Assembly: GCA_017415165.1 (NCBI GenBank)
Contig: JAFQIY010000047.1
Span: 1 to 53,828 of the forward strand
Reading direction: 5' to 3'
DNA: 53,828 nucleotides
Origin: Oscillospiraceae bacterium
Lineage (GTDB): Bacteria; Bacillota; Clostridia; Oscillospirales; Ruminococcaceae
Shown here piece after piece: positions 32,618-46,169 of the stretch (within the stretch, counting starts at the first letter, position 1; every line of letters starts with the position of its first letter). A program made the position numbers and the translations under genes. Below the pieces are notes generated by a model, which worked only from the letters and a program-made list of their open reading frames with translations, did not search any database and was not told the origin of the DNA.

Positions 32618-32665
32618 TTTTTTCACTCCTTTTTGCAGTACATATTTGTTCAAGCAACAATTTTT

Positions 32666-32694
32666 ATTATACACTTTTTTCATTTGCCTGTCAA
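32666..32694 (-). promoter_or_regulatory. Consensus promoter of the mgtE leader and mgtE
   Basis: Minus strand TTGACA (32694-32689), 17 bases, TATAAT (32671-32666), both perfect. The -35 lies 19 bases from the end of repeat copy C. Confidence 0.92.
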
Positions 32695-32712
32695 CAAAAA
32701 ATTAATGAAGAT

Positions 32713-32835
32713 AAATTATAATTTGTCTGTGAGTGTGGAGTTTGGAGAGTGGAGTGAGGAGTTAAAGAGAACCATAGTTTACACAACAACTCCACACTCC
32801 ACTCTCAACACTCCTAACTCTATAAATTATAATTT
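32713..32835. repeat. 123-bp palindromic repeat, full copy C
   Basis: Appears identical to copy A throughout, including both AAATTATAATTT ends and the AAAGAGAACCATAGTTTACA core. It lies between the mazF stop and the mgtE promoter. Confidence 0.93.
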
Positions 32836-32880
32836 GTACACTTGTTTTTTACTGTTCCTGCCCATAAGGCTAAGTATGCC

Positions 32881-33237
32881 TTATGTAGCGTCGTTAGGAA
32901 GTCCGAAGCTGATTGAAAGGGCACTGTTGACCTTAGTCATAGCAGTCGGGTCGAGCTCGCCCATTCTCTCCTTCAGACGTGTTTTATCAATGGTACGGAT
33001 TTGCTCAAGAAGAACAATGCTGTCCTTTTGCAGACCGCATTTGTCCGCCGCAAGCTCGATGTGGGTCGGCAGCTTGGATTTGTCACGCTGACTGGTGATG
33101 GCCGCAGCAATAACCGTGGGACTGTGCTTGTTGCCCACATCATTCTGCACAATAAGCACGGGACGGATACCTCCCTGCTCCGAACCTACAACGGGACTTA
33201 AATCCGCGTAATAAATTTCTCCCCTTTTCACAGACAT
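32881..33237 (-). CDS. mazF: MazF/PemK-type endoribonuclease toxin
   Basis: Sequence-specific mRNA interferase, 118 residues from the chosen ATG. Conserved features: [47 protein letters not shown] and the late [16 protein letters not shown]. This start has AGGAG nine bases upstream and matches the family N-terminus. A further 31 in-frame codons reach a GTG at 33330 that also has an AAGGGGA seven bases ahead, so a longer form cannot be excluded. No mazE-like antitoxin is adjacent: upstream is only this short stretch and then a repeat. It may be an orphan toxin or have a distant antitoxin. Confidence 0.9.
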
Positions 33238-38262: not shown

Positions 38263-38338
38263 TGGAGCGGATTACGGGGCTCGAACCCGCTACCTCCACC
38301 TTGGCAAGGTGGCGCTCTACCAGATGAGCTAAATCCGC
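38263..38338 (-). tRNA. tRNA-Gly (GCC)
   Basis: 76 bases including an encoded CCA. Acceptor GCGGATT/AATCCGC, D-loop TAGCTCATCTGGTAGAGC, anticodon loop TTGCCAA between CACC and GGTG, T arm GCGGGTTCGAGCCCCG. Last gene of the cluster. Confidence 0.97.
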
Positions 38339-38434
38339 ATAAATGGAGCGACAGTGAAAAGTGCCGCATTACTGTACTTTGATACAAACCGTAGGTTTGA
38401 AACAATAAAGTTGAAACAAACTGTAAGTTTGTTT

Positions 38435-38510
38435 TGGTGCCTCCGGACGGAATCGAACCATCGACACGGGGATTTTCAGTCCCCTGCTCTACCGACTGAG
38501 CTACAGAGGC
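38435..38510 (-). tRNA. tRNA-Phe (GAA)
   Basis: 76 bases with encoded CCA. Anticodon loop CTGAAAA between GGGGA and TCCCC; D arm GTAGCTCAGTCGGTAGAGC; T arm TGGTTCGATTCCG. Confidence 0.97.
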
Positions 38511-38553
38511 AACTTCGCGGTACAGCTACCATTATAATTCCTCGAAGGAATTG

Positions 38554-38630
38554 TGGCGACCTGGATGGGACTCGAACCCACGACCTCCGCCGTGACAGGG
38601 CGGCGTTCTAACCAGCTGAACTACCAGGCC
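38554..38630 (-). tRNA. tRNA-Asp (GTC)
   Basis: 77 bases with encoded CCA. Anticodon loop CTGTCAC between CCGCC and GGCGG; T arm GTGGGTTCGAGTCCCAT; discriminator G as expected for tRNA-Asp. Confidence 0.97.
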
Positions 38631-38634
38631 AAAA

Positions 38635-38710
38635 TGGTGGGAACAATAGGGCTCGAACCTATGACCCTCTGCTTGTAAGGCAGATGCTCTCCCAGCTGAG
38701 CTATGCTCCC
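38635..38710 (-). tRNA. tRNA-Val (TAC)
   Basis: 76 bases with encoded CCA. Acceptor GGGAGCA/TGTTCCC with one G-U pair; anticodon loop CTTACAA between TCTGC and GCAGA; T arm TAGGTTCGAGCCCTA. First gene of the cluster after its promoter. Confidence 0.97.
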
Positions 38711-38863: not shown

Positions 38864-38906
38864 TCAAAAAATGCGGAATATTACCGTAAAAGATAATATC
38901 CCGCAT
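38864..38906 (-). terminator. Terminator of the phage-like cassette
   Basis: Minus strand ATGCGGGATATTA pairs with TAATATTCCGCAT (one G-U), then TTTTTTG. It begins five bases after the stop of the last cassette gene and insulates the tRNA promoter. Confidence 0.88.
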
Positions 38907-38910
38907 AAGA

Positions 38911-39828
38911 TTAAATATTGCAGTACCTGTCAAAATAGCAGATAATTTTTGTGTAAACGCCCTTTTTGGCATTGCCGCAGATTTCAACAGAGGAAATCTC
39001 GCAGTCTGTCCCGTCAGAAAAAACGAACCTGTCACGAAGCTCCTCACCGTTGTAGCCGAGGTAGGTCGCAAACCTTGCCTTGCTGCCTCGCTCGGTAAAA
39101 TTCAGCTTGTACTGCAAGCCAAGGTGGTCAAGGGCAACAAACTGCTTGTCGTAGGCAATGTATTTACAGCGAATAATGCCCCTTTCCTCTGCAAAATTGT
39201 CGCTGTAGTGATAGCTGTAGGTGTCGTTGACGTCTTTCATATAGTAATCGCTGACCATTCTGGAATAGTCGCCCGTGATGCCTTCCTCGAAGATTTTTTC
39301 AGGGGTGACCACAAGAGGATTGTCAGCAGGTGCAAGCCTTATCTCGTTTGGTGCACCTATGTAGGGGTAGTCCTCGTAAAGAGTCAGACCCATACAAACG
39401 ATAGCCGTCCACTGGCTGTCGTGCTCCTTTACATATATGTAGCGCACGGTTGTGTCGTCGCTTTGCCACGTCACATTCGGAATTGTCAGGTGCTCGCTCA
39501 TAAGCTTGTTCAGGGAAATAACCGTCAGCGTGCCCGGCTCGATTTCATTCTGCGCAAGCATTGAAGCAAACCCTCTTGAAGTAATTTTCAGCAGACTTCT
39601 TCCGCTGCTTTTTACAACAGAAAATGCGTCCATTATTCCGCTGTGGACGAGCTTTTCTCCTACCGTAAAATCAACCTTCACAACATCGCTTGCGGCACAT
39701 TCCGTCTCAGCAGTAACCGTCAGACTGCTGTAGGGCGTGTACCTTTCACGGACGCACCTGAACGTTGCAATCCTGTCGGTTTCAAGGGTTGTTCCGTCCT
39801 TGAAGTATAATTTCAGCAGTACGTTCAC
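38911..39828 (-). CDS. Phage tail hub/baseplate-like protein
   Basis: 305 residues, GTG start overlapping the preceding stop by four bases. The first ~110 residues (VDFTVGEKLVHSGIMDAFSV, LLKITSRGFASMLAQNE, PGTLTVISLNKLMSEHL) resemble the ring/hub proteins of the XkdQ/gp44/gpD type found in phage tails and PBSX-like elements. The C-terminal ~120 residues (FAEERGIIRCKYIAYDKQFV onwards) are less characteristic. If a hub, it would sit at the tip of a tail, yet no tail tube, sheath or tape-measure gene is present in the cassette. Last gene before the terminator. Confidence 0.5.
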   Translation of the reverse strand: MNVLLKLYFKDGTTLETDRIATFRCVRERYTPYSSLTVTAETECAASDVVKVDFTVGEKLVHSGIMDAFSVVKSSGRSLLKITSRGFASMLAQNEIEPGTLTVISLNKLMSEHLTIPNVTWQSDDTTVRYIYVKEHDSQWTAIVCMGLTLYEDYPYIGAPNEIRLAPADNPLVVTPEKIFEEGITGDYSRMVSDYYMKDVNDTYSYHYSDNFAEERGIIRCKYIAYDKQFVALDHLGLQYKLNFTERGSKARFATYLGYNGEELRDRFVFSDGTDCEISSVEICGNAKKGVYTKIICYFDRYCNI

Positions 39829-40193
39829 GCTGTCACCGCCTTTTCGGAGACGTCTCCCTCGCAGGCAAATTCAACCTCAACCGTTTCGGATTTTCCGCTT
39901 CTGCCTTTGCAGGTATAGGAAACAAGAACAGCGTCCGCAAAGGTCATTCCGTCGTATTCAAGTGAAAACCCCGTGCCGCTTGTAAGCATTGCATCAAGCA
40001 GGTGTGCGCAAGGGCTTTCCGACGTGCCCGAAAAGGAAATTCGTGCAGCCTTTCCGCCGCCGTTATGCAGGGCAACATCGCCGTTGCTGAGGACAGTTTC
40101 GCCGACAGCGGCATTTCGTGCAAAGGAGTATTCCTCCACAAAAATTTTCACGCCGCCGAATTCTGCACAGTATTTATCAGCCGCAAATTCCAT
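39825..40193 (-). CDS. Phage-cassette protein of unknown function (122 aa)
   Basis: Beta-rich soluble protein with GETVLSNGDVALHNGGGKAA and SGTSESPCAHLLDAML and a second beta segment. The gene overlaps the preceding 128-residue gene by 17 bases and the hub-like gene by four, so it is part of a translationally coupled set. It could be a tail or baseplate component; no family recognised. GTG/ATG choice: the ATG begins MEFAADKYCAE. Confidence 0.5.
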   Translation of the reverse strand: MEFAADKYCAEFGGVKIFVEEYSFARNAAVGETVLSNGDVALHNGGGKAARISFSGTSESPCAHLLDAMLTSGTGFSLEYDGMTFADAVLVSYTCKGRSGKSETVEVEFACEGDVSEKAVTA

Positions 40194-40563
40194 AGCCGCA
40201 CCTCTTTACATCAAAAAATATTTCGCAGTAAACCCTGTCGGTTTTCACTTCGTACTGCACCTCGGAAATCTCCGCTCCGAAAATTTCCTCGCCGCAGTTC
40301 AGCACCGCAGGAACAACGGTATTTTCAGCACAATTCTGCACCTCACCGCCGTCTGCACCGAAAGCCTGCACCGTAATCCTTACCTGCACAGAAACGTCTG
40401 CCGAACCGCCGTGAAGCCTTTCAAAGCTGATTTTCCTCACCCCCGCATAAGCTGAAACCGACTTGTCCGCCCTGTTGTAGCCTGCAAGACGGCAGTATTC
40501 ACGCTCGCAGGAAACACCTGCCGAATTTACCGCACTGATTATGTTGTCGAGAATATTCTGCAT
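40177..40563 (-). CDS. Phage-cassette protein, possible head-tail or tail-completion protein
   Basis: 128 residues from ATG 40563, with GGAG ten bases upstream (a longer frame would run into the previous gene). It starts MQNILDNIISAVNSAGVSCE and has a beta-rich remainder ending EIFFDVKRCGYGICG. Size, position after the connector-like gene and the start pattern suit a tail-completion or minor tail protein, but this is inference from gene order only. Confidence 0.45.
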   Translation of the reverse strand: MQNILDNIISAVNSAGVSCEREYCRLAGYNRADKSVSAYAGVRKISFERLHGGSADVSVQVRITVQAFGADGGEVQNCAENTVVPAVLNCGEEIFGAEISEVQYEVKTDRVYCEIFFDVKRCGYGICG

Positions 40564-40570
40564 ATCAGAC

Positions 40571-40930
40571 TCACTCCATTCTGACGAACACGAAGCCGTC
40601 GTCACGGATTATTCCAGCACAGACCGCCTCGTACTCCCTGTAAAGCCGACGGGCACGCTCAAGACGTGCCGAGTAATCCTGTTCCTGAGGAACAGCGCCC
40701 GTTCTTGTCAGTGCAAGACGTTCCCTGACCGCCTTTATTTCAAGGGCACGGCAAAGCGCCTCAGCCGCCGCAAGATAATGAACCGCCGTGCAGTCACAGT
40801 CCTCATCGCAGTCAAGACGTTCTTCGGTGTGCCTTGCCGCAAGAGTCGCAACGGGAAGGAACTCGTCCGCGTCAGCCTCGTTGTAAAAAAGCCTGAACAG
40901 CGCAAACACCTTTTCAATTTCAAGACTCAC
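40571..40930 (-). CDS. Head-tail connector-like protein
   Basis: 119 residues, mostly helical, GTG start with AGGGGG seven bases ahead. Segments FALFRLFYNEADADEFLPVA, HYLAAAEALCRALEIKA and LERARRLYREYEAVCAGII resemble the small alpha-helical gp6/gp15-type adaptors that sit after the capsid gene in many phages. Twelve bases after the protease gene. Assigned by size, helix pattern and position. Confidence 0.5.
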   Translation of the reverse strand: MSLEIEKVFALFRLFYNEADADEFLPVATLAARHTEERLDCDEDCDCTAVHYLAAAEALCRALEIKAVRERLALTRTGAVPQEQDYSARLERARRLYREYEAVCAGIIRDDGFVFVRME

Positions 40931-40942
40931 AAACGTTCCCCC

Positions 40943-41710
40943 TTACATTTTGTACTCGTCACAGCTTTTCACGGTGCTTGCCGCCGAAAAATTTCTGCAA
41001 AGCTGTTCAAGCTCATCATCACCGAGAGCGTCCTTTATGCAGTCGAAAAGCTTTTTCGCCGTGCCGTCGGGACTTTTCAGCATAAGAGCACGGTTTATCA
41101 TAGCTTCCTTTTCACTTCTTGAAAAAGCGGGAGTCTCAGGCTTTTCAAAGCTTTTTGTCACGCCTGCACAAACCTGTGCAGGAACAGCAACAAAGCTCCA
41201 TTCGTAAGCGTCGGAAATATCATCAAGAGTGAAGAAACAGCGCTTTCCATCGTATTTTCTTCCCTTGACGTGACGGCAGGGCTTCACCCTCCTGTCAGCA
41301 CCGCACACCGAGCAAATCTGCTTCTCAGCGCTACAGGATACGGAAACCTCTTTCTTGATGCCGCCGTCAATCTCACGGATAAGGTCAGCATTCGAGTCAG
41401 TTCTCACCATATAGGCATAGCCTTTAAGGTACGCATATTTCTCGCCGAGGGAATTGCTTCTCTCCTCCTCGACAACCTCTGTCAGAAAAATTCTGGCAGT
41501 CTGATTTTCACCCTTTGGATTGTGGTCGAAAATGCCCGTTACACCGATGAATTTTTCCGCAAGCTCATCAAGGGACTTGCGTGAAAAGCGTTCATTGTCA
41601 CGGTCAATCTCGTTGTCACAAAGGGTCACAGGAAAAATGTAAACCTCCTCAACGGAAAGCTCCTTGCGGGTGAATTTGTTGAGCTGTTCAAGTAAAGTTT
41701 TTTCATCCAT
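40943..41710 (-). CDS. Prohead protease-like protein (HK97/XkdF-like)
   Basis: 255 residues from ATG 41710; the frame upstream reads through a repeat and is not used. AAAGGA lies 13 bases upstream, which is long, so a TTG four codons earlier is an alternative. N-terminal half: EEVYIFPVTLCDNEIDRDNE, FIGVTGIFDHNPKGENQTAR (candidate catalytic His) and GGIKKEVSVSCSAEKQICSV (candidate Ser). These correspond to the His/Ser arrangement of HK97-fold maturation proteases. A Cys-rich stretch (CSVCGADRRVKPCRHVKG) may bind zinc. In transcription order it follows the capsid gene, whereas proteases normally precede it. Confidence 0.65.
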   Translation of the reverse strand: MDEKTLLEQLNKFTRKELSVEEVYIFPVTLCDNEIDRDNERFSRKSLDELAEKFIGVTGIFDHNPKGENQTARIFLTEVVEEERSNSLGEKYAYLKGYAYMVRTDSNADLIREIDGGIKKEVSVSCSAEKQICSVCGADRRVKPCRHVKGRKYDGKRCFFTLDDISDAYEWSFVAVPAQVCAGVTKSFEKPETPAFSRSEKEAMINRALMLKSPDGTAKKLFDCIKDALGDDELEQLCRNFSAASTVKSCDEYKM

Positions 41711-41733
41711 TGGTTCAATCAAATCCTTTCTAT

Positions 41734-41834
41734 CAATGCGCAATGCACAATTCGCAATGCGCAATTATGGTAGCATTCTCTGCAATAAAGCGACGTACCA
41801 TAATTGCGAATTACGCATTACGAATTGCGAATTG
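41734..41834. repeat. Palindromic AATTGCGAATTACGC-type repeat
   Basis: Left arm CAATGCGCAATGCACAATTC continuing GCAATGCGCAATTATGGTA; the right arm TACCATAATTGCGAATTACG continuing CATTACGAATTGCGAATTG is its near inverse, around a 24-base loop. It fills the gap between the capsid and protease genes. A fragment of the same family is at 34855-34893. Confidence 0.85.
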
Positions 41835-41836
41835 AA

Positions 41837-42802
41837 TTATGCGATATTAAGCACCTTAACTGCGTCTGCGGAAATTACAGAGAAGCCTGCATTTACCGCA
41901 ACTGCCGCCGCTTCGGAAAGCTTGGAAATAAGCTTGTCAACCTCAACGACAACCTCGCCGCCTCTGATGAATTCCAGAGCACAGTTCTTGTCCATACCGA
42001 TTGCGATATCGTCCGCAACCGCAGAGGAAACAACGATTTCTGCGCCGAATGGTGTGAGCATATTGCCGCCGCTTGTTGTGACAGCCTTGTTCATCTCGTC
42101 AAATGCAAGAATTTTCGCCGCCGTTGCAGGTGAACATACAACCGCATTCATTTCGCAGTTTGTGAACTTGCCCCAGAACGCCGCAAGCTCGGAGTAATTG
42201 AAATCGCCGCCTGTCATAGAAACAGTTTCAGCCGCCGCTGTTACCGCTGTGATTGCAGATGCTTCAATTGCCTTAGCAAGCTTTGCACCTACCGCACGGA
42301 GAGCTACCGCAAAAACGTCAAGTCTCTGCTGTCTGATTGCTTCATACGGAGCATTGATAAGACGTGCAAACTTCTTGAGTGCAATCGGTGCAGATGTAAG
42401 AGAAATGCTGCTTTCAGGAAGCGCACCGCCAACAGCAATTTCACCGTCGTATGCAGCTGTGCCGTCAGAAAGTACAATGCCGCGGCAGTCGATACCGTCT
42501 GCAATGCTCATTGCCGCAGTAATCTTGTTAACACAGCCGCTGTTAAGACCGCTTTCTACAGCACGTCTTACAAACTCAGGGAAAAGAAGTGCACTTTCTG
42601 CAGACTGGAAGAACTTGTCCACCTTGTCAGCATTTACACCCTTCACCTTGATGTCGAAGCGCTTCAGCTGACGTTCAAAAGCGTCAAGCTTTGCAAGACC
42701 GTCTGTGTAGTTTTCAGATGGGTCAAGCGCTTCAAGTGCCTGAGAGAAAGACTTGCCTGAAAGATTATAAAGACCCTTTTCGATTTTGATAGAATTAAAC
42801 AT
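41837..42802 (-). CDS. Major capsid protein (HK97-fold-like)
   Basis: 321 residues from ATG 42802 with AGGAGG eleven bases ahead; the longer frame is repeat-derived. An N-terminal helical region (MFNSIKIEKGLYNLSGKSFS to about residue 70), ALLFPEFVRRAVESGLN, ALKKFARLINAPYEAIRQQR, and a C-terminal beta part with MLTPFGAEIVVSSAV, CALEFIRGGEVVVEVDKLIS. This is the usual plan of phage capsid proteins of the HK97 group (N-arm, E-loop, P and A domains). Being the third gene after terminase and portal, it is the obvious shell protein. Confidence 0.75.
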   Translation of the reverse strand: MFNSIKIEKGLYNLSGKSFSQALEALDPSENYTDGLAKLDAFERQLKRFDIKVKGVNADKVDKFFQSAESALLFPEFVRRAVESGLNSGCVNKITAAMSIADGIDCRGIVLSDGTAAYDGEIAVGGALPESSISLTSAPIALKKFARLINAPYEAIRQQRLDVFAVALRAVGAKLAKAIEASAITAVTAAAETVSMTGGDFNYSELAAFWGKFTNCEMNAVVCSPATAAKILAFDEMNKAVTTSGGNMLTPFGAEIVVSSAVADDIAIGMDKNCALEFIRGGEVVVEVDKLISKLSEAAAVAVNAGFSVISADAVKVLNIA

Positions 42803-42831
42803 ATTAATATTCCTCCTGTTAATTTGATGAC

Positions 42832-42918
42832 GAGTGTGGAGTGTGGAGTGAGGAGTTGTTGTGTAAACTATGGTTTTTCCCCTAACTCCACACTCCACTT
42901 TCCTAACTCCACACTCAT
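42832..42918. repeat. Shortened GTGGAGT palindromic repeat between portal and capsid genes
   Basis: CGAGTGTGGAGTGTGGAGTG, AGGAGTT and the core TGTGTAAACTATGGTTTT (inverse orientation to copy A), then CCTAACTCCACACTCCACTT and TCCTAACTCCACACTC. The AAATTATAATTT ends are lost. Confidence 0.8.
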
Positions 42919-42922
42919 AATT

Positions 42923-44086
42923 TTACATTCCAATTTCCTTTTCGATTTTCGCCGCCTGTGCGTTGTGAAGTCTTGCCTGTGCGAGGACAGCCTCGTCCTG
43001 AAGATTGATATTTTCCCACTCAACGGAAACGCTTCCGCTGCCGCCGATAAGCGCAAGATAGGTGCTGCAAATCTGCTTTATCACAGGCGTAAGCTGTCTG
43101 CGGTAAAACTCCAGCTCAGATGTAAGAATATCCGCCTGCTGTGAGGACATCCTCTCCGTTGAAGACCAGGTCAGACCAAGCAGAAACGGCGGCACGGAAA
43201 GCTTTGCAACAATCTGCTCAAGAAGCTGTCGCACGGGAATTTCCGTGTCGATAATCTGATTATCCGCACCGATAACCTTTATTCCCACGTCGCCCACCGC
43301 AACAAAGTCACGCACCTCGCCGCAGCGCATTGCGTTCATTCCCTCGCTCCATTCCTTTGCAATCTGCTGTGCACGCTCCTTTGCAAAAGCCATTTCGCTG
43401 CTGTCTGACGGCTTGTAGGTTACAGCGTAACGCACGTTACCCACACGGTCAAAATTCTGACCGATGCACTGATAAATTCTCATCAACACCGCCGAAATGC
43501 AGGGGAGTCCCCTGAGAATTGACTGACCGTCAGGATTTTTCGTGTTAGGATTGAGTGCACCGTAAACTATAAGCTGAGGATTTGCAGCAGCACGCCACTC
43601 GTTGTCATTGTCAAGCATAAAATAACGTCTCTCACAAGGGTTTTCACCTGCACGACAGCAGAAACGGTTGACGTTTATCGGAGCAATACCCTCCACATCG
43701 CCCGTCTGATGATTTACAAGTATCTCTGCCGCCGCTGAACCGTAAGTAAGCAGGCTGTCGAGAAATGCGTCAGTAAAAGCATAGATTGACACGCCGCCTG
43801 TGCCCACGGGAATTTCCTCAGTAAAGCTGTCCATAGCCTCCTGAAAGCGCTCATCAGCGCATATTACCCTGTAGCCGCCTGTAAGTCTGATAATTTTCTG
43901 AATTGCCGCATCGACAATCGGCACCGAATAACGCAGATTGTCATAAAGCTGACGCTCGTTTGCACCTCCCGGCTGAAGCGTGAACAGATTCACACCCTTT
44001 TCAGCAAACCTGCCGCCGCTTACCACACCGCACTCAATAGGCTTAATGTCAGCATCACGGCTCAGAAATCTTTTGATAATGTTCAT
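42923..44086 (-). CDS. Phage portal protein
   Basis: 387 residues. Dodecameric DNA gateway at the capsid vertex. Conserved features: IVDAAIQKIIRLTGGYRV, FLDSLLTYGSAAAEILVN, GQSILRGLPCISAVLMRIYQ, the stem/helix LRQLLEQIVAKLSVPPFLLG followed by TWSSTERMSSQQADILTSELEF and the helical tail ending AAKIEKEIGM. These are typical of SPP1/HK97-type portals. AGGAGG ribosome site. It follows terL (143 bases) with a repeat copy between them. Confidence 0.85.
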   Translation of the reverse strand: MNIIKRFLSRDADIKPIECGVVSGGRFAEKGVNLFTLQPGGANERQLYDNLRYSVPIVDAAIQKIIRLTGGYRVICADERFQEAMDSFTEEIPVGTGGVSIYAFTDAFLDSLLTYGSAAAEILVNHQTGDVEGIAPINVNRFCCRAGENPCERRYFMLDNDNEWRAAANPQLIVYGALNPNTKNPDGQSILRGLPCISAVLMRIYQCIGQNFDRVGNVRYAVTYKPSDSSEMAFAKERAQQIAKEWSEGMNAMRCGEVRDFVAVGDVGIKVIGADNQIIDTEIPVRQLLEQIVAKLSVPPFLLGLTWSSTERMSSQQADILTSELEFYRRQLTPVIKQICSTYLALIGGSGSVSVEWENINLQDEAVLAQARLHNAQAAKIEKEIGM

Positions 44087-44107
44087 AAATTCCTCCTGAA
44101 TAAATAT

Positions 44108-44230
44108 AAATTATAATTTATAGAGTTAGGAGTGTTGAGAGTGGAGTGTGGAGTTGTTGTGTAAACTATGGTTCTCTTTAACTCCTCACTCCACTCTCCA
44201 AACTCCACACTCACAGACAAATTACAATTT
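44108..44230. repeat. 123-bp palindromic repeat, full copy D (inverted)
   Basis: Opposite orientation to copies A-C: TAGAGTTAGGAGTGTTGAGA to CTCCACACTCACAGACAAATT. The right terminal palindrome carries one change (AAATTACAATTT). Its last bases contribute to the terL stop codon. It is located between terL and the portal gene. Confidence 0.92.
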
Positions 44231-45482
44231 ACCGTTTCACGTTCCCTGCCCAGAAACCGCCCTCGTCGCTGCGGAAGAACGGACTCGTCACAAAATACCT
44301 CATATCGTCCATAGCGTGGTCGTTTTCCTTGATGGGAACATCACCGCTGCGGCTTTCATCCCAGCGGTACAAGGTAAACTCCCTCAGAATGTCCGTGCAG
44401 CTTTCACTGAACATAAGCCTGCCGTCCCTTAAAGCGTCTGAACAGCGCCTTATGCCCGACAGCACGTCATTCTGTGCCTTTGTAACGGGAAACTCGCCGT
44501 GACGACGGATACATTCAATAAAAGATGCCGCCGACGGGTCAACGATAACTCCCTCGACCCGCCTGCCGCCTATAAGCTTACAAAGCCCCTCGTAATGTTC
44601 CTCGTCAGTCCTTGACATACCCTCCCGTTTTGAACTGTAATAATACTCGGCAATTCTGTACCACACTCCGTCATTCCTGCCCCATAAACCAAACGATGAC
44701 GGATTGACCGTTCCGTAATCGCAGGAAACAACGTACTTCTCAAAGCTGTCGGGAAGCCTGCACACAACGTACTTTTCCTCCGAGAACAACGGGTACACCA
44801 GACCCTCTGCCGCTACCCATTTTCCCAGCACGAACCTGTCGTAGAACGTGCCCGAATAAAGCCGCTTGTATCTCTCACGGACTTCCTCCGAAAGTGACGG
44901 ATTGTCGTCCATCGTGAAGTGCAGATACAGCGCATTCTTCTCCCTTGCCCTGAGCACCCACTCACGGTAAAACCAGTGATACGGATAAGACGGATTACAG
45001 CTGAACCAGATTTTCGAGCCGCTTACCGAGCACCTTGCCAACGCCTGCTCCACAAAGGAACGGGGCATCAGCACCACCTCGTCGAGCATTACACCGCTGA
45101 GCGTAATGCCCTGAATAAGAGCCGCCGAGCCTTCGTCCTTGCCGCCGAAAAAGTAGAAACGGTTCGTCCTGCCGCCTGCCGAAATGTCAGCATAGCTGCC
45201 GCTTACCTTTTCGGTGCAGCGGAAACCAAGCCCCCTCAGCGAGGACAGCAGCGGCGTAACAACATTTCTTCGCAATGAAGTAACCGTCTTGCCGCATATC
45301 GCAAAAACTCCGCCGTCAAATTCCGACATCGCCCACGCCGCAAAGGAAAGCGACATACAAAGTGTCTTGCCGCTGCGCACCGCACCGTCGCAGATGACCG
45401 CATCGCAGTTTCTGTGTTCTTTCGTCCTCCACCACGTCAGCACCGCAAGCTGCTTCTGAGAGAACTGCGTGAATTTCGCCAA
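44229..45482 (-). CDS. terL: Terminase large subunit (PBSX-type)
   Basis: 417 residues. ATP-driven DNA packaging motor and headful/cos nuclease. Walker A DGAVRSGKTLCMSLSF (about 32-47), Walker B GVMLDEVVLMPRSF, ATPase coupling motif FSCNPSYPYHWFY, and RNase-H-like nuclease residues in VVSCDYGTVNPSSFGLWG, VEGVIVDPSAASFIECIRR and the late HAMDDMRYF. All catalytic positions look intact. The stop codon lies at the edge of repeat copy D. Second gene of the cassette, 23 bases after terS. Confidence 0.9.
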   Translation of the reverse strand: MAKFTQFSQKQLAVLTWWRTKEHRNCDAVICDGAVRSGKTLCMSLSFAAWAMSEFDGGVFAICGKTVTSLRRNVVTPLLSSLRGLGFRCTEKVSGSYADISAGGRTNRFYFFGGKDEGSAALIQGITLSGVMLDEVVLMPRSFVEQALARCSVSGSKIWFSCNPSYPYHWFYREWVLRAREKNALYLHFTMDDNPSLSEEVRERYKRLYSGTFYDRFVLGKWVAAEGLVYPLFSEEKYVVCRLPDSFEKYVVSCDYGTVNPSSFGLWGRNDGVWYRIAEYYYSSKREGMSRTDEEHYEGLCKLIGGRRVEGVIVDPSAASFIECIRRHGEFPVTKAQNDVLSGIRRCSDALRDGRLMFSESCTDILREFTLYRWDESRSGDVPIKENDHAMDDMRYFVTSPFFRSDEGGFWAGNVKR

Positions 45483-45505
45483 ACAACCAACCTCCGTTCA
45501 ATTTC

Positions 45506-45997
45506 TTATTCAGCCTTGTCAGCAGCCGTATTTTCGGCAGCCTCGCCGATAGCATCGAAGAAGCTCTGTGCAAGGTCATCAACAGCCTTGCCGCTGCGGA
45601 TTTCATTAAGCTTTTCAATAGCCTTGAGCCTGTCCGCAAATTTGATTTCGCAGACTCCCTTGCCGATTTTGAACTCGGCAACATTATAAAGGTCAAGCTT
45701 TCTTATGTCCGCCTCGGTAAGCTCCTCAGGATTGCTTTCCGCAAGAATTACCGCATCGTTTATCCTGCCGTTGATAAGCCTTTCGAGAGCGTCCTCAACC
45801 GTGCTTCCCACAGCCTTTTTCATCGTAACAGCCATTGAAGCCAGAAACCCGAATGCCTGAGGGTGAGAAAGAATTTTCATACCCTCCTCATAAGCAGACC
45901 CGTGAGCAAACCCACAAGCGGCGGCAGCCTCCTCAACGTTTCTGCTCCTGAAGAACTGATACAGAAATTTTTTCTGTGCCTTAGTGAGATTCTGCAC
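45506..45997 (-). CDS. terS: Terminase small subunit-like protein
   Basis: 163 residues, GTG start with AAAGGGGG seven bases ahead. N-terminal helix-turn-helix MQNLTKAQKKFLYQFFRSRN and VEEAAAACGFAHGSAYEEG for recognising the packaging site, then a helical oligomerisation region (LERLINGRINDAVILAE) and the DLYNVAEFKIGKGVCEIKF segment with an acidic tail. This is the terminase-small layout of PBSX-type elements. It opens the cassette; a terminator-like hairpin lies about 55-90 bases upstream. Confidence 0.78.
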   Translation of the reverse strand: MQNLTKAQKKFLYQFFRSRNVEEAAAACGFAHGSAYEEGMKILSHPQAFGFLASMAVTMKKAVGSTVEDALERLINGRINDAVILAESNPEELTEADIRKLDLYNVAEFKIGKGVCEIKFADRLKAIEKLNEIRSGKAVDDLAQSFFDAIGEAAENTAADKAE

Positions 45998-46049
45998 CCA
46001 TACACCCCCTTTCCGCAGAGCACCTTTGCGTATGCCCTACACAAAAAGG

Positions 46050-46088
46050 CTTAAAAAACGAAAAAGTTGCACGCGAACGTGCAACTTT
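46050..46088 (-). terminator. Terminator/attenuator hairpin ahead of terS
   Basis: Minus strand AAAGTTGCACG / CGTGCAACTTT with a TTCG tetraloop, followed by TTCGTTTTTT. It points toward terS and lies between any upstream promoter and the cassette, so it could attenuate cassette expression or end an upstream transcript. Confidence 0.7.
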
Positions 46089-46169
46089 CAGAAAAATATT
46101 TTTTTGTTTTATTGTGTATTTGTAGCAACGCACAAAATCACCGTGCAACTATTGTCAAGGCAGACATAA

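Follow-up and report, generated by a model that had tools for sequence, protein, structure and literature searches.

The analyzed stretch of DNA (53,828 nucleotides, contig JAFQIY010000047.1 of the Oscillospiraceae bacterium assembly GCA_017415165.1; referred to as the window) carries nine collinear genes on the minus strand (38911–45997, approx. 7.1 kb), extending from the small terminase subunit gene terS to a gene encoding a baseplate hub-like protein, with host genes on both sides. This block is very probably a domesticated, host-owned particle operon of the gene transfer agent (GTA) type. Furthermore, it appears somewhat more probable than the alternatives together that GTA genes throughout the family have become ordinary host genes read by one dedicated regulator recognizing the dyad GTTGCA-N8-TGCAAC. 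In species with genomes of 0.7–0.9 Mb, pieces of the cassette at least 100 kb apart would each have kept or gained this switch, so that particle production would have outlived both the loss of linkage and extreme genome reduction. We infer that particles are formed, that they carry mostly host DNA, that this DNA is delivered to other cells and that lysis and adsorption functions come from unlinked genes.

A preliminary description of the window had reported the nine intact genes, which was confirmed, and had considered them either a domesticated particle-forming system or a satellite-like remnant. The former is strongly supported by the same gene order, the same tRNA-side locus in several species, purifying selection, largely vertical inheritance and scattering with a shared dyad. 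The latter found no support: the flanks of the block showed no integrase among the matches listed, and genes at least 100 kb apart, as in three relatives, are not able to travel as a single element.

Selection and Inheritance of the Block

Ratios of nonsynonymous to synonymous substitution rates (dN/dS) were determined by simple Nei-Gojobori counts. Relative to genome G017, values were 0.03 for terS, 0.07 for the major capsid protein gene (mcp), 0.09 for terL, 0.11 for the hub gene and 0.12 for the portal gene, followed by the genes for the protease-like protein (0.13), g8 (0.17), g7 (0.20) and the connector-like protein (0.23). Relative to G001, the connector and g7 genes reached up to 0.40, with dS near or past saturation for some genes and an infinite value for the protease-like gene. 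Overall, the terL, portal and capsid genes, for which this measurement had been proposed, ranged from 0.08 to 0.09, 0.08 to 0.13 and 0.07 to 0.14, respectively; the corresponding ranges were 0.03–0.13 for terS, 0.17–0.40 for the connector gene, 0.20–0.40 for g7, 0.11–0.17 for g8 and 0.09–0.15 for the hub gene. For comparison, rpoB showed values of 0.02–0.03. All nine genes are under purifying selection. Frameshifts throughout close relatives combined with dN/dS near 1 were not seen, and no internal stop was present in any of the genes compared.

The portal gene was found in 12 of the 21 genomes of the genus (including that of the window) and in 7 of 16 genomes from other genera of the family. 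Among 297 family genomes sampled at a completeness of at least 90%, the portal profile matched 143, representing 52 of 95 genera, mostly once (more than one match in 7 of the 143 rows). Two of these matches are marginal (G155, G190), one is made up of fragments (G110), and six listed matches contain one stop. In portal carriers tested for further genes, mcp was found in 13 of 13 and terL of the cassette type in 11 of 13. The preliminary description needs correcting in that the block belongs to a widespread family.

In order to compare gene and host phylogenies, rpoB was sought in 30 chosen carriers, of which 28 matched and 27 were used (G020, a fragment, was excluded). The tree of rpoB and that of the portal gene have 16 of 24 splits in common, including 14 of the 17 strong ones, whereas relabelled tips gave 0.23 common splits on average and a maximum of three in 1000 trials; the Spearman correlation of the distances was 0.79. 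We read the descent of the portal gene as mostly vertical, accompanied by many losses.

The nine-gene order is retained wherever the contig is long enough. A search of related genomes for the block at the same locus, as suggested in the preliminary description, was successful: seven of the 12 carriers in the genus (the window, G003, G006, G007, G011, G012 and G017) have the hub end of the block beside a tRNA cluster headed by tRNA-Val. Moreover, in G015 and G020 a tRNA-Val fragment lies at the contig end beside the block. No tRNA gene was found near the block in G001, and the contigs of G008 and G009 end too early to tell. The non-carriers G005 and G013 possess the tRNA cluster with different neighbours.

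Scattered Cassette Genes in Reduced Genomes

Three relatives with reduced genomes (0.7–0.9 Mb) harbor terL, portal and mcp genes as single copies with unbroken frames, located far apart. In G097 (0.7 Mb), terL (C4:194.7k) and mcp (C4:320.8k) are separated by 126 kb and the portal gene is located on another contig (C5:107.8k). In G111 (0.9 Mb), terL (C8:66.6k) and the portal gene (C8:225.4k) are 159 kb apart, with mcp at C5:121.3k, and in G170 (0.8 Mb), 117 kb lie between the portal gene (C7:137.8k) and mcp (C7:21.0k), with terL at C1:308.7k and a connector-hub module on a short fourth contig (C6). These distances within single contigs speak against assembly breaks. As judged by eye, the neighbours of the scattered genes are housekeeping genes. 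Cassette genes at least 117 kb apart in these genomes could hardly share one small head. A cluster that begins at a contig end is kept in G295 and G123, whose genomes are also small (0.8 and 1.0 Mb, respectively). TerS frames are short in the scattered genomes (104, 107 and 135 amino acids), and short ones occur elsewhere too.

In G111, the scattered protease-capsid pair is followed by an RVT_1 reverse transcriptase and a bAvd-like protein (L236:10541–12448), which is the make-up of a diversity-generating retroelement; the bAvd match lies just below the curated cut-off.

A Shared Dyad Upstream of the Cassette Genes

Directly before terS, a leader hairpin of 12 pairs followed by a T run (46062–46089, minus strand) contains GTTGCACGTTCGCGTGCAAC, with the core dyad GTTGCAC-N6-GTGCAAC at 46066–46085. 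Among the 12 carriers of the genus, the 11 whose contig reaches the site share the core GTTGCAC...GTGCAAC without change (alignments of 10 and 11), and these span species whose hub proteins are 55–82% identical to that of the window. Within the genus, the dyad pattern was present in 12 of 12 carrier genomes versus none of 9 non-carriers. Two carriers need qualification: the only copy in G009 precedes a DUF4417 gene, the cassette contig starting inside terS, and one of the two copies in G011 lies inside a gene.

Beyond the genus, 117 loci were surveyed, 113 of which remained after removal of identical ones. The exact form GTTGCA-N-TGCAAC was found upstream of terS in 33 of these loci, with a spacing of eight bases in 33 of 34 sites; only four sites were present in the rest of the surveyed loci. 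Allowing one mismatch per half, 46 of the 113 loci carried the dyad, compared to a chance expectation of 0.034 per locus. Furthermore, of 70 named loci with sufficient upstream sequence, 33 had some terminator-like hairpin before terS, versus 10 of 350 simple shuffles. Since a T run follows the dyad in 22 of 33 loci, both the terminator and the operator readings stand.

In the scattered genomes, all 11 modules carry the dyad at or near their 5' end, namely terS, connector-hub, protease and portal in G097, the same four in G170, and terS, portal and protease in G111. Allowing up to one mismatch in each half, ten loci of these genomes gave 12 sites in total, and one of these sites lies inside a gene. 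The connector-hub module of G097 directly follows terL and yet has a dyad site of its own, and the dyad overlaps the called start of the open reading frame (ORF) at terS of G111 and at the protease gene of G170. Scanning was extended to 42 pieces of the G097 genome (736,233 bases; sites across piece ends are missed) and 180 kb of G170, with L360–L362 left out. In G097, 25 loose sites were detected, of which 20 lie inside ORFs. Four of the five non-coding sites correspond to cassette modules, and these four have the fewest mismatches in the six-base core; the fifth is weaker and lies beside an ORF of 676 amino acids. Based on these four sites and the dyads of all 11 modules, the system is taken as a host regulon.

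Alternatively, the dyad could be a leader or dispersed element of general occurrence in these bacteria instead of a dedicated switch of the capsid genes; this is a minority possibility. It draws on G015, where eight copies lie away from terS and the seven of them that were fetched are near unrelated genes, and on G007, G008 and G009, each with a copy before a DUF4417 gene. On the other side stand the separation of carriers and non-carriers in the genus, the ratio of 34 sites upstream of terS to four elsewhere, and the best four non-coding sites of G097, all of which belong to cassette modules.

The seven copies fetched from G015 (L302–L308) lie, in varying orientation, near unrelated genes such as recG-, prfB- and rimP-like ones, as assigned by eye. 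Several of the G015 copies keep the surrounding leader, as would be the case for a dispersed element or an enlarged regulon. In G007 (L298:4998–6335), G008 (L291:1583–2935) and G009 (L293:1585–2922), the same leader dyad precedes a gene adjoining an aspS-like gene (by eye). The two dyad-bearing copies of this aspS-adjacent gene that were tested match DUF4417, making it a candidate for a further regulon member.

Comparison with Known Systems and Alternative Explanations

For the assignment of the block, the definition of GTAs was taken from the available parts of PMC9662315. In line with this definition, the block encodes particle proteins derived from Caudoviricetes and is mostly vertically inherited, co-diversifying with its host (14 of 17 strong rpoB splits in 27 genomes). 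Regarding full endogenization, often at several loci, the window has one locus among host genes and the three reduced relatives have three or four places.

The closest described systems are FpGTA I and II of Faecalibacterium prausnitzii, published in January 2026 (PMC12946183); the genus Faecalibacterium is placed in Ruminococcaceae in the same report. As far as the accessible text of this publication goes, their operon comprises terS, terL, portal, scaffold, capsid and hypothetical genes and lacks replication genes, the particles (approx. 40 nm, containing approx. 9 kb of DNA) have no visible tail, and lysis and baseplate genes are located at a second locus. FpGTA I has ten ORFs in 10.5 kb versus nine in the 7.1 kb of the window block, the comparison being one of descriptions only. 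The same text mentions GTA-like packaging of 4.6 kb fragments in R. callidus without naming the operon (PMC12946183); with respect to packaging of mostly random host DNA, these data are no more than suggestive. RcGTA and other alphaproteobacterial type I GTAs, likewise compared by description from the available portions of PMC9662315 and PMC6854486, share Caudoviricete-derived particle genes, vertical inheritance and distribution over several loci (five in R. capsulatus). In RcGTA, by contrast, the particles bear a tail of 49 nm and no DNA-binding domain is present in TerS.

Concerning the function of the particle, TerS and TerL would cut DNA and pump it through the portal into a capsid, which may be matured by the protease-like protein. 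The connector, g7, g8 and hub proteins would form a very short tail tip that closes the head. The whole presumably goes back to a contractile-tailed phage after reduction of its tail. Expression may be set by the conserved dyad directly before terS, either as a leader terminator under antitermination or as an operator, and lysis and adsorption would be supplied by unlinked genes.

Several observations weigh against this interpretation. Neither a lysis nor an adsorption gene was found for this genome, and a fibre profile searched in 20 genomes gave three matches, none of them in the genus of the window and nothing in its genome (G000). Of the 21 genus members, nine lack the portal gene, and a clean empty site was not observed. 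Two of the 13 carriers tested (G123 and G295) gave no terL; in both, the cluster begins at a contig end, and the portal frame of G123 holds a stop. Moreover, three strong rpoB splits conflict with one portal split of support 0.94, and the portal gene occurs in 2 of 24 genomes from other families of the order, so that some horizontal transfer is possible. The dyad is not universal, its exact and loose forms being confined to the 33 and 46 loci mentioned above, and in G015 only one of nine copies precedes terS. Finally, TerS of the window matches PF03592 from residue 4, whereas TerS of RcGTA lacks a DNA-binding domain.

Alternatively, the domesticated particle could package host DNA for killing or as a decoy instead of delivering it, as stated for PBSX in the available text of PMC12946183. 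This use is considered unlikely. The block contains no recognized tube, wedge, fibre or lysis gene, which would agree with such a role, and the authors of the FpGTA study, in the text available, leave open whether their particles deliver DNA or serve another use (PMC12946183). In contrast, the motor and nuclease residues of TerL are invariant, and terS, terL and the capsid gene are among the most constrained genes, which would be needless for a pure killing device; furthermore, the block has no toxin-like match in Pfam or PHROGs.

Capsid-forming phage-inducible chromosomal islands (PICIs) possess head and packaging genes and no tail genes, which resembles the block; they bear an integrase and move as one unit. 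A satellite of this kind, using the tail of a helper phage, would fit the presence of head, packaging and neck genes without a tail, the position beside tRNA genes and a separate contractile tail locus in the same genome. It is nevertheless very improbable. No integrase is among the matches listed for 34 flanking ORFs, the carriers G001 and G003 (both 99% complete) have no Baseplate_J gene, and inheritance is largely vertical. Moreover, genes at least 100 kb apart are unable to move as one element, and in three species the cassette occupies three or four separate places; this dispersal contradicts a satellite.

A decaying prophage remnant, to which missing tail and lysis genes and the six stop-containing portal matches of the family could point, can practically be dismissed in view of nine intact frames, dN/dS values of 0.03–0.23 relative to G017, the lack of internal stops in the genes compared and the same gene order in dozens of loci, as the preliminary description had anticipated in rejecting random decay.

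As a host-owned GTA-type operon, the block would carry the finding of one published gut GTA in the direction of a long-standing trait of a large lineage from gut and rumen; it is also a candidate operon for the Ruminococcus packaging that was reported without one. Its retention in genomes of 0.7–0.9 Mb, scattered but with one shared switch, bears on the question of whether GTAs are kept for the benefit of the host, and the dyad provides a handle for finding the regulator and any missing lysis and adhesion genes. In the literature searched, with subscription journals mostly outside, nothing closer was found on a GTA operon in Ruminococcus or on scattered GTA genes in reduced genomes. Relative to this literature, the nine-gene minimal form, the family-deep descent of the portal gene, the scattering and the shared dyad are new.

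Predicted Functions of the Block-Encoded Proteins

The proposed identities of the terS, terL, portal and capsid gene products were corroborated by Pfam and PHROGs matches. TerS (45506–45997, 163 amino acids) matches PF03592 (E 5e-11) and phrog_51 (5e-7). For TerL (44229–45482, 417 amino acids, TTG start as listed), matches to PF03237 (2e-13) and phrog_2 (1.5e-50) were obtained. Putative Walker A, Walker B and nuclease aspartate residues, which we take to be those of the known motifs, are invariant in an alignment of nine members, in agreement with the earlier statement that they are kept. The portal protein (42923–44086, 387 amino acids) matches phrog_30703 (1e-133), and the major capsid protein (41837–42898, 353 amino acids as listed) matches PF25209 (2e-12) and phrog_3922 (1.5e-61); tblastn matches of the latter in relatives begin at residues 11–33 of the listed ORF.

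The prohead-protease-like protein (40943–41764, 273 amino acids as listed) matches phrog_16951 (8e-95), a family without stated function. Among 131 family ORFs longer than 250 amino acids, the motif K(K/R)EVSxxC is present in 123 and a strict F/Y-DHxP in 50. Since the PHROG has no function and motifs are the further indication, a protease role is predicted here rather than assigned.

The connector-like, g7, g8 and hub proteins of the window gave no convincing Pfam or PHROGs match of their own. The head-tail connector-like protein (40571–40930, 119 amino acids) is named by position and family, and g7 (40177–40605, 142 amino acids) is tail-terminator-like by position only, its place in the gene order being conserved; support for both consists of position and conservation. 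G8 (39825–40193, 122 amino acids) is probably a shortened relative of XkdP/Mu gp43-type distal tail proteins. Its profile recovers hub-adjacent proteins of 171–172 amino acids in longer relatives, one of which matches PF07157 (DNA_circ_N) and LysM; direct profile comparison (hhalign) was weak (E 2.5e-4, probability 43). Searches of solved-structure profiles and PHROGs with g7 and g8 gave nothing useful; the g7 protein of the window was unmatched and two single members of its family had weak matches. In several relatives (L103, L117, L119, L148 and others), g7 and g8 form a single ORF of approx. 225–257 amino acids, while they are two genes elsewhere.

The hub designation (38911–39828, 305 amino acids, gp44-like by its family) holds at the level of the family and was not recovered for the window protein itself. 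With the family profile, 3d37 ('Tail protein, 43 kDa') was matched at E 5.5e-4 and 1wru ('Baseplate hub protein gp44') at E 0.029; of 60 family members, eight matched phrog_177 ('baseplate hub'). The g8 and hub families thus resemble the contractile tail tip of the XkdP/XkdQ and Mu gp43/gp44 type. Unlike such tails, the block has no recognized sheath, tube, tape measure or baseplate wedge.

Ancestry and Related Sequences in Phage Collections

Of at least 574 stretches that matched, the best 80 supplied the named relatives, which include R. flavefaciens FD-1, YAD2003, ATCC 19208 and Y1 as well as R. albus 8; none of these 80 was named Faecalibacterium or R. callidus. The genus of the window presumably belongs to the same family as Faecalibacterium, the named relatives being Ruminococcus and Oscillospiraceae. 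In longer relatives, the capsid genes are followed by genes for a sheath (L041, phrog_279), for a hub and for a baseplate wedge (L058, phrog_6), and no gene of tape-measure size was seen in the longer forms L041, L058 and L118. The window block looks like a pared-down contractile phage.

The genome of the window also contains a separate contractile-tail prophage or tailocin (L206, G000:C5:15000–29870) with sheath, tube, tape measure, LysM, YQBQ and Baseplate_J genes, the last being the sole Baseplate_J gene of this genome. Borrowing of a tail from this locus was ruled out by G001 and G003, the two carriers without Baseplate_J.

True phages carrying this portal protein were also sought. Six matches in phage collections were unconvincing; five are 'Bacteriophage sp.' scaffolds lacking annotation, and the sixth is a Microcystis phage (28% identity). 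As judged by eye, L275 and L276 contain long runs of host-like genes, L280 and L281 have such genes ahead of terS, and L279 does not extend far enough to judge. The corresponding unverified human-faecal 'Bacteriophage sp.' records MT835508, MT835769, MT835952 and MT836604 (L275, L276, L280, L281), with the cassette beside host-like genes, are either mislabelled or represent host DNA recovered from particles. In the Microcystis phage MACPNOA1 (KY697807, L277), the 28%-identical portal protein is annotated as glycerone kinase, and a relative of the protease lies within a gene annotated as nicotinate-nucleotide diphosphorylase.

Flanking Genes and Signals

The window starts at base 1 of contig G000:C46 in a genome of 2.62 Mb and 75 contigs. 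Genes adjoining the block encode CotH, a glycosyltransferase, a radical SAM protein, epimerases, DegV, an amidohydrolase and other host functions. Ten ORFs between 33.5 and 53.7 kb and 24 non-overlapping ORFs of at least 100 amino acids below 33.5 kb were covered; for the latter, 25 of 33 and 25 of 34 matching families were listed, most listed PHROGs being without description. Among the matches listed for these 34 ORFs there was no integrase, tape measure, sheath, holin or endolysin, in keeping with what had been noted before.

Both bounding hairpins exist with a T run, as described previously. The intrinsic terminator 3' of the operon (38871–38906, minus strand, 15 pairs) begins four bases after the last stop and not five. 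In a mechanical scan, 12 terminator-like sites were counted versus a mean of 9.6 in shuffles; both hairpins thus convince through stem length and conservation and not through the scan. In several members of the genus, the hub gene is followed by hairpins of differing sequence. The cluster of tRNA-Val, -Asp, -Phe and -Gly genes (38263–38710, minus strand) adjoins the block outside the operon and is the landmark found as the same neighbour in other species. Similar, repeat-like sequence occurs in the block spacers 44090–44220, 42826–42910 and 41760–41840 and again at approx. 32633–33091, resembling a small dispersed repeat.

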